Part shown: one piece after another, positions 21,628 through 22,713 of the stretch
Layout of the letters: each line of letters begins with the position of its first letter
Numbering within the stretch: position 1 is the stretch's first letter
NCBI GenBank assembly: GCA_903896015.1
Contig: CAITWF010000105.1
Span: 1-33,925 of the forward strand
Direction of reading: 5' to 3'
Length of the DNA stretch: 33,925 nucleotides
Source of the DNA: an uncultured Opitutia bacterium
GTDB taxonomy: Bacteria > Verrucomicrobiota > Verrucomicrobiia > Opitutales > Opitutaceae
Made by a program: the position numbers and the translations under genes
The notes under the pieces: generated by a model
Database searches by the model: none
Seen by the model: the letters and a program-made list of their open reading frames with translations, nothing else
Told to the model about the DNA's origin: nothing

Positions 21628-22713
21628 TTAGAGCTCGTCGTCGTGAGCGACGTTGAGGGAAGAGGCCTTTTGATATTCGGTGACGCGACCCTCGAAGAAG
21701 TTTTGCTCCTTCTTGATGTCCATCATCTCGGCGAGCCACGGCAGCGGGTTTTTTGCGCCGGGCGACAACGGGGCGAGACCGCAGCCTTCGAGGCGACGAT
21801 CCGCAATGTAGTCAATGTAGGTCAGAAATTCGTCGATCGCGAGACCCACGGCGTTCACGGGCAGGCAGTCGCGGATGAACTCCTTCTCGAGCGTGATGGC
21901 CTCGGCCATGAGCGCGCGGAGCTCTTCCTTGAATTCGGTGGTCCAGATCTCGCGGTTCTCCTCGACGAGATCCATGAAGAGATTCCGGAAAACCTCGATG
22001 TGGTTGGACTCGTCGCGGAGCGTGTAGCGGAACATTTGTCCGATGCCGGGGAACTTGTTCTGCCGGTAAAGCGAAAGGACCATACCAAAGAGGCCGTAGA
22101 ACTGCGTTCCCTCCATGCACTGCCCAAAGACGAAGATGTTTTTCGCGAGCAGCTTCTTGTTCTCGGGCTGCGTGAGATCGATGTCGCGGCGGAGGGACTT
22201 CGAAACGCGGGTGACGAACTCATTCTTGCGGACGATCGTCGGGATGTCCTCGAACATCGCCTCGCACTCGTGGGGGTTGATGCCCAGCGACGCGATCATG
22301 TAGAGTAGCGAGTCGGCGTGAATGTTTTCCTCGTGCGCGTGGCGACCCAGGACGAGCTTGAGCTCGGGGGCGGTCACGAGTTCGCGGACGACGTGCTGGA
22401 TGTTATCGCCGACAATGCCTTCCGCGGCCGAAAAATAGCCAATGCCCATCCGGATGATCCAGCGCTCGACGTCGGATACCGCCTTCTCATCGCGCCACTG
22501 CTCGATGTCCTTGCCCATCGGAATGTCCTCCGGCTCCCAATGGTTGGCCTTCATCTTGCGGTAAAGATCGTAGGCCCACTGGTATTTCAGCGGGAGGAGA
22601 TTGAAGCACATCGTCTCACGGCCGTTGATGACTTTCTTGGCGGCAAACGCCGCCTCCGCCTTGTCCTGATCGAGGACGAAGGTCTTAGCGCCAACTTGGA
22701 AGGTCGTTTGCAC
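21628..22713 (-). CDS. nrdB: ribonucleoside-diphosphate reductase beta subunit NrdB, class Ic-like (no radical Tyr)
   Basis: A 361-residue R2 subunit that makes the oxidised metal cofactor starting radical chemistry in NrdA. Metal ligands are E98, E129, H132, E201, E235 and H238. The residue four after H132, where the stable tyrosyl radical sits in E. coli (Y122), is L136 (codon CTA), and the first Asp ligand is Glu (E98). These spacings match Chlamydia trachomatis R2 (E89, E120, H123, F127, E193, E227, H230) with constant offsets of 9 then 8. Y138, Y230 and Y347 align with its pathway tyrosines Y129, Y222 and Y338. A Mn/Fe cofactor is inferred. The start is a GTG at 22713, the first plausible codon; the sequence before it does not look coding. 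First gene of nrdBA. Confidence 0.95.
   Translation of the reverse strand: MQTTFQVGAKTFVLDQDKAEAAFAAKKVINGRETMCFNLLPLKYQWAYDLYRKMKANHWEPEDIPMGKDIEQWRDEKAVSDVERWIIRMGIGYFSAAEGIVGDNIQHVVRELVTAPELKLVLGRHAHEENIHADSLLYMIASLGINPHECEAMFEDIPTIVRKNEFVTRVSKSLRRDIDLTQPENKKLLAKNIFVFGQCMEGTQFYGLFGMVLSLYRQNKFPGIGQMFRYTLRDESNHIEVFRNLFMDLVEENREIWTTEFKEELRALMAEAITLEKEFIRDCLPVNAVGLAIDEFLTYIDYIADRRLEGCGLAPLSPGAKNPLPWLAEMMDIKKEQNFFEGRVTEYQKASSLNVAHDDEL

Follow-up and report, generated by a model that had tools for sequence, protein, structure and literature searches.

The window analysed here (33,925 nucleotides from an uncultured Opitutia bacterium) contains a gene, nrdB, for the small subunit (R2) of ribonucleotide reductase (RNR). 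Its product has Leu at the radical-tyrosine site and Glu as the first metal ligand, and judging from its residues it appears to use a metal pair in place of a tyrosine radical, Mn/Fe being the likeliest cofactor. We consider it probable that this protein is a class Ic-like beta subunit of the cell's apparently only RNR, with Mn(IV)/Fe(III) standing in for the tyrosyl radical. Its Leu/Gln/Thr pocket marks a distinct subgroup of class Ic-like R2s. The coupled pocket, the deep clade and the nrdB-nrdA gene order of the Leu R2s are new here.

The class label is not new, since a Leu variant of class Ic is already in print. In the accessible text of PMC6370689, which refers to Lundin 2009, class Ic takes in NrdBz proteins that have Phe, Leu or Val, and that of PMC3824934 credits Hogbom 2010 with Leu, Ile and Val at the class Ic radical site; no mention of the Leu/Gln/Thr pocket, the operon order or the Leu clade was found in these portions of the two papers. 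Class Ic-like sequences are placed in the NrdAz and NrdAq groups in the available part of PMC9669993, and reviews, in the excerpts consulted, describe the tyrosine-free class Ic R2 as the Phe type of Chlamydia trachomatis. Neither a characterised member of the Leu subgroup nor biochemistry of the Leu clade was found in the literature searched, most subscription journals being outside its reach.

The nrdB locus and class assignment

The features of the locus are listed in Table 1. The nrdB frame runs on the minus strand from a GTG codon (22713-22711) to a stop codon (21630-21628). Since ATG stands at the same place in 7/7 relatives with upstream sequence examined, the GTG start fits, despite the longer open frame. 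The protein scored 331 bits against the NCBIfam model PRK07209 (cut-off 309), is labelled ribonucleotide reductase small chain by Pfam and NCBIfam, and is the genome's sole match at E 1e-3.

Table 1. Positions of the RNR genes, key codons and upstream boxes in the window
Feature	Position	Strand	Basis
nrdA, catalytic subunit (1117 aa), with an ATP-cone spanning residues 159-245	18101..21454	minus	PRK07207, PF02867, PF03477
nrdB, radical-generating subunit, 361 aa	21628..22713	minus	open frame; PF00268 and PRK07209 above cut-off
T231 codon, radical-pocket position	22021..22023	minus	Ile in Phe types, Thr in class Id
Q204 codon, adjoining F205	22102..22104	minus	Gln in 104/104 of the Leu clade
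L136 codon (CTA), radical Tyr site of class Ia / Phe127 of C. trachomatis	22306..22308	minus	alignment to 1syy
E98 codon, first metal ligand, Glu replacing Asp	22420..22422	minus	alignment to 1syy
Putative NrdR operator, two 16-bp boxes, 16 bp apart	22869-22854 and 22837-22822	minus	TTGTGG half-sites 32 bp apart

The product of nrdA reached 1258.6 bits against PRK07207 (cut-off 965), although its residues 1-158 gave no match above cut-off. Its nearest solved structure is PDB 5im3, which we take to be the Pseudomonas aeruginosa class Ia enzyme. In the whole genome (97.9% complete), the nrdA of the window is the one PF02867 match, and no NrdD match (PF13597) was found. As no other RNR match occurs, NrdB should work in dNTP supply. 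In Leu loci nrdA was located downstream of nrdB in 44 of the 45 loci long enough to judge (none in view in the other), and in Phe and Tyr loci it was located upstream (50/53, with none in view in three, and 44/47, with none in view in two and nrdA downstream in one, respectively). An N6/N4 DNA methylase gene (16926-17729, minus; PF01555, CcrM model match below cut-off) lies near nrdA. The window also encodes a GH28 family glycosidase near rhamnogalacturonidases (7594-8934, plus), which scored below the equivalog cut-off.

The box pair upstream of nrdB is a putative NrdR operator. TTGTGG-like half-sites (six variants allowed) were found exactly 32 bp apart in 23/44 upstream regions, its own included, against a mean of 0.035 and a maximum of 1/44 upstream regions in 200 mononucleotide shuffles that ignore kinship. 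According to the accessible text of PMC12051234, paired NrdR boxes usually have 15-16 bp between them.

Alignment of NrdB to C. trachomatis R2 (1syy, E 9.9e-79) gave E98, E129, H132, E201, E235 and H238 as the ligand set. The offsets between the two proteins given in the initial annotation proved exact, being 9 for E98, E129, H132 and L136, and then 8 for E201, E235 and H238. The codon at 22308-22306 was checked and is CTA, that is Leu. NrdB also carries W59, E128, Y138, F205, Y230, D234 and Y347. All three pathway tyrosines named earlier (Y138, Y230 and Y347) are thus present, but Y138 is not invariant, position 138 being His in six loci (L078, L191, L192, L100, L114 and L115) with their other key residues intact.

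A phmmer search of the PDB placed 1syy first, followed by 6y2n (E 3.6e-70) and 9dws (E 1.3e-38); E. coli class Ia R2 matched at E 2.9e-12 or weaker. An AlphaFold2 model of NrdB was built from 45 aligned sequences (pLDDT 86). Among the matches listed by VIA-align, C. trachomatis NrdB was at the top (Z 43.2, rmsd 2.6, 323 residues aligned), with the C. trachomatis entries at Z 42.4-43.2, 6y2n at 42.1, Aquifex R2 at 37.5, E. coli class Ia at 37.2 and lower, and class Id at 33.2-34.5.

For NrdBzc (class Ic), the available part of PMC6370689 tabulates the signature E,E,H,E,E,H plus E,D. NrdB has the same first sphere (E98, E129, H132, E201, E235, H238), Glu before ligand 2 (E128), Asp before ligand 5 (D234) and, at the radical site, Leu, one of the three class Ic residues (Phe, Leu or Val). 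The ligand set, E128 and D234, the absence of a radical Tyr and the nearest structures support the assignment to a class Ic-type R2 made in the initial annotation. The Tyr/Asp pairing of class Ia/Ib R2s is not found in the window protein, which has Leu136 and Glu98. Class Ie is marked by the loss of carboxylate ligands, and NrdB keeps all its carboxylates.

An identity as R2lox, a ligand-binding oxidase, or as a dead R2, in either case without ribonucleotide reduction, is extremely improbable. R2lox likewise has Glu as the first ligand and no radical Tyr, but it is marked by the lack of a C-terminal Tyr and by Ala at the F205 position, whereas NrdB keeps Y347, an acidic tail and F205. Such a role is also at odds with the adjacent nrdA and with a genome in which no other RNR match was found.

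The radical-site residue and its pocket

The presence of Leu at the radical site was then considered in related genomes. In the phylum of the window, an R2 match at E 1e-10 or better was found in 116/387 genomes and the Leu lineage (identity at least 50%) in 85/387, the window's own genome included in both counts. Leu was present in 77/77 of the Leu-lineage genomes read (of 85, own included), which excludes a sequencing error at the L136 codon. A Phe-like band (~38-42% identity) in the same 387 genomes comprised 13 full-length and 2 partial matches, and Phe was found in 8/8 of those read among the 13 full-length ones. The earlier expectation that Leu is less common than Phe at this site is therefore contradicted in this phylum sample (85 of 387 genomes, as opposed to 15 matches in the Phe-like band, two of them partial). 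In Chlamydiota, 118/151 genomes had an R2 match, mostly in the Phe-like band, and the 16 of these 118 that were read comprised 13 Phe and 3 Leu.

The first ligand and the radical-site residue covary. A cleaned set of 219 R2s contained 105 Glu/Leu, 63 Glu/Phe and 51 Asp/Tyr pairs with 0 exceptions, i.e., Glu with Leu or Phe in 168/168 and Asp with Tyr in 51/51; these counts ignore kinship, the loci not being independent draws. Loci fetched twice, rows with <280 aligned residues and 16 beta-prime rows (see below) were dropped before counting. L033, L050 and L077 were left out; G116 and G378 re-entered under the loci L243 and L240, and G207 did not. Outside the cleaned set, Gln/Leu or Gly/Leu pairs occur in degenerate paralogs, and L239_3, a short fragment of a frame-broken gene, has Arg in the first-ligand column. 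In one locus (L049, G330:C32), nrdB lies in two frames with ~28 residues absent between the matched pieces, which is either a pseudogene or an assembly error; nrdB is intact in G169 and G181, which have the same genus code.

In the cleaned set, L136, Q204 and T231 occur together in 104/104 members of the Leu clade. Position 204 in Phe types is Phe (55) or Trp (8) in 63/63, and position 231 is Ile in 63/63 Phe types and 50/51 Tyr types. Positions 96, 99, 103, 125, 127, 130, 134 and 135, near the ligands in sequence, also differ from Phe types. The 105th Glu/Leu sequence, L110 (a Thermomicrobiales MAG), is outside the Leu clade: it lies within the Phe clade, carries its radical-site Leu there and keeps Ile231. 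Consequently, two changes on the tree are needed to account for Leu at this site, and Leu can occur without Thr.

Through E. coli I234, position 231 corresponds to an Ile of the radical pocket. This Ile is named in the accessible part of PMC3824934 as belonging to the hydrophobic pocket around the tyrosyl radical. In class Id, according to the available text of PMC6754362, a conserved Thr holds Tyr away from the metals (Thr294 in Leeuwenhoekiella blandensis, with Glu298 as a ligand). T231 likewise stands four residues before E235, and these characteristics allow us to assume that it is the equivalent of the class Id Thr, giving a mixed Ic/Id signature; it was placed by this offset and not by measured coordinates. 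A PDB entry whose title gives a T191I variant of a class Id enzyme fits Ile as the usual residue there.

The pocket bears on a reading in which NrdB has a superoxide- or peroxide-activated dimanganese Mn2(IV,III) cofactor like that of class Id, the Id tyrosine having been lost. Class Id has in common with NrdB the Glu first ligand and the pocket Thr four residues before ligand 5, and T231 is fixed in 104/104 Leu R2s and found in 0/63 Phe types. However, class Id pairs its Glu with a second-sphere Tyr that is essential in Flavobacterium johnsoniae, whereas Glu98 is paired with Leu136 here. The Lys located four residues after the first ligand in class Id (Glu170/Lys174 in L. blandensis; absent in some NrdBi) is Gly102, class Id has Cys or Ser at the E128 position, and the structure ranking puts class Ic above Id. 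We therefore regard the dimanganese reading as unlikely and retain Mn/Fe. Note that a whole lineage, in what is apparently this organism's only RNR, fixes Leu and two coupled pocket changes, one of which sits at the Thr position of the dimanganese class. A comparison with the Phe-type and Id enzymes would be a direct test of how second-sphere residues choose Mn/Fe versus Mn/Mn and suppress the tyrosyl radical.

Phylogeny, distribution and tandem paralogs

The phylogenetic sample consisted of 84 loci and the window; removal of four trait columns and of the long rows L087 and L088 left 83 rows. The resulting tree replaced the first one; it still carries a long-row warning, for L193, which is placed with L078, L191 and L192. 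In this tree the Leu R2s (27 rows) are a single clade supported at 100/100, and the long stem leading to them measures 2.76 changes per column; their tentative sister grouping has 91/40 support. The radical site needs five changes of state on the tree and the first ligand three. A Phe/Glu group (Endozoicomonas, Bradyrhizobium, Amycolatopsis and Pseudonocardia) stands among Tyr/Asp sequences, so both residues switched together there. Such covariation of Glu/non-Tyr versus Asp/Tyr, together with the switches on the tree, provides natural experiments.

The Leu lineage was also found in 3/294 genomes of Planctomycetota, to which a Pirellulaceae locus belongs (identity 76-77%), and in 3/151 Chlamydiota genomes (51-54%). 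The remaining R2 matches of both phyla were 36-43% identical; in Planctomycetota 12/18 of them were read (11 Phe and one Tyr, L190), and in Chlamydiota 13/115, all Phe. The Leu clade shows 40-43% identity to the chlamydial Phe types read, and the gene order is opposite. No second match at E 1e-60 was found in the six Leu genomes of these two phyla, and no genome among the 387 of the window's phylum had both a Leu-lineage match and a separate Phe-like-band match, the 43% match of G378 being its own degenerate paralog.

The trait had been proposed to be ancient or shared in the PVC lineage. The Leu lineage does occur in all three PVC phyla, but the best tree does not group it with the Phe types of Verrucomicrobiota and Chlamydiota. 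A tree constrained to unite these Phe types with the Leu clade was 15.8 log units worse and was not rejected (p-AU 0.247). According to the available text of PMC9816063, the chlamydial ancestor is reconstructed as having had a class Ic RNR. Given the distribution, the gene order, this p-AU value and that reconstruction, the Leu lineage may, but need not, share a common PVC ancestry.

Phylum-wide searches for the Leu lineage covered the three PVC phyla and the phyla of G395, G391 and G390. At E 1e-83 or better and with no positive control, no Leu-lineage match was found in 299 genomes of the G395 phylum (Pseudomaricurvus seed), 251 of the G391 phylum (Chloroflexi MAG seed) or 64 of the G390 phylum (Latescibacteria MAG seed). 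A scan of viral contigs for close relatives gave one pattern match and no relative, and the plasmid and phage R2s found at E 1e-20 (261 and 268 records) were all <60% identical. A named-genome scan, whose first sequence was of the Phe type and which covered the best 80 of 555, has little bearing on Leu types.

A tandem second nrdB lacking metal ligands (beta-prime) was found in 15 genomes of one family of the window's class, in which 145 genomes were sampled. The carriers are 12 genomes of group g206 as well as G378, G1468 and G1500 (loci L226-L240, e.g., in G1471 and G1457). Fourteen of the 15 sequences were aligned, one near-copy being left out. E98, H132, E235, H238 and Y347 are lost in 14/14 (the Y347 column lying in a gappy tail), with Arg at position 238 in 14/14 and at position 132 in 12/14; W59, E201 and D234 are kept in 14/14 and E129 in 12/14. 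The C-terminus is acidic and ends in DL in 15/15. In three close pairs from three genomes, dN/dS (Nei-Gojobori) was 0.042-0.080 for beta-prime and 0.016-0.027 for the canonical nrdB of the same genomes. Among the matches listed for a beta-prime model (pLDDT 90.5) was R2 at Z 37.2. The order in the two loci with nrdA in view (L226 and L240) is beta-prime, beta, nrdA. In L239 (G1500), the canonical nrdB beside beta-prime is broken into two frames, and the beta-prime frame is open.

A different tandem paralog occurs in G116 (L243) and G207 (L217) of the window's family; it keeps the six ligands and has Y138H and Y230N, with a dN/dS of 0.125 between the two. Heterodimeric R2 is known from yeast, and beta-prime resembles yeast Rnr4. 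In the light of the tandem pseudo-subunits, bacteria may likewise have evolved a heterodimeric R2. Beta-prime is full-length, unlike the truncated nrdB of Candidatus Liberibacter asiaticus described in PMC5154197, which in its accessible part also cites a truncated E. coli form. No precedent for a full-length metal-free beta-prime in bacteria was found in the literature searched, as far as its texts were available.

Cofactor and comparison with known R2 proteins

For the metal identity, electron route and activity of NrdB, we infer the following scheme. A two-metal site, site 1 most likely holding Mn and site 2 Fe, would react with oxygen. One electron would enter through Y230/W59, leaving a Mn(IV)/Fe(III) centre in place of the tyrosyl radical, and this centre would oxidise the active-site Cys of NrdA through W59, D234 and Y347. 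The last step is based on the class I oxidation route from the cofactor to the NrdA active-site Cys. In the accessible parts of PMC4118035 and PMC8463856, class Ic Mn(II)Fe(II) reacts with oxygen, an electron is delivered via Y222 and W51, and Mn(IV)/Fe(III) replaces the tyrosyl radical; Y230 and W59 are the equivalents of Y222 and W51 in the window NrdB.

The metal is not fixed by sequence, which would leave room for an iron-only metal-centred R2, e.g., with Fe(III)/Fe(IV), or for a metal-indifferent one. In the sources available in part, however, class Ic is described as highly active only with Mn/Fe, and the Fe(IV)/Fe(III) centre as one that probably does not permit transfer to be reversible; an iron-only or indifferent site is thus very unlikely, and Mn(IV)/Fe(III) remains the preferred assignment.

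Several characteristics speak against the class Ic reading, namely the 37-38% identity to C. trachomatis R2, the long stem with sister support of 91/40, the class Id-type T231 and the altered near-ligand residues. A further, unlikely possibility is that R2s with the Leu/Gln/Thr pocket constitute a cofactor subclass of their own, intermediate between Ic and Id. In that case the polar Thr and the space left by Leu might put water or hydroxide beside metal 1, the oxidant would be metal-only and have a metal preference or activation route distinct from those of Ic and Id, and some relatives would have evolved full-length metal-free beta-prime partner chains.

A comparison with characterised R2 proteins shows where the class Ic-like NrdB of the window stands. 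Class Id R2s (F. johnsoniae and L. blandensis) are similar in the Glu first ligand and in the pocket Thr at ligand 5 minus four; they differ in having a radical-site Tyr and, in the described structures, a Lys near the metals, neither of which is present in NrdB. The R2 of 6y2n, which we take to be the Saccharopolyspora erythraea class Ic R2, is the structural neighbour next after the C. trachomatis entries (Z 42.1) but has Phe at the radical site; its PDB title says only 'R2 subunit'. The C. trachomatis class Ic R2 (1syy and 4d8f; NrdBzc) shares with NrdB the six ligands, the Glu first ligand and the absence of a radical Tyr, and its W51, Y222, D226, Y338 and F197 (= F205) all have equivalents in the window protein. 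The two proteins differ in that NrdB has Leu for Phe127, Thr for Ile223 and Gln for Phe196, with 37-38% identity in the structural alignment.
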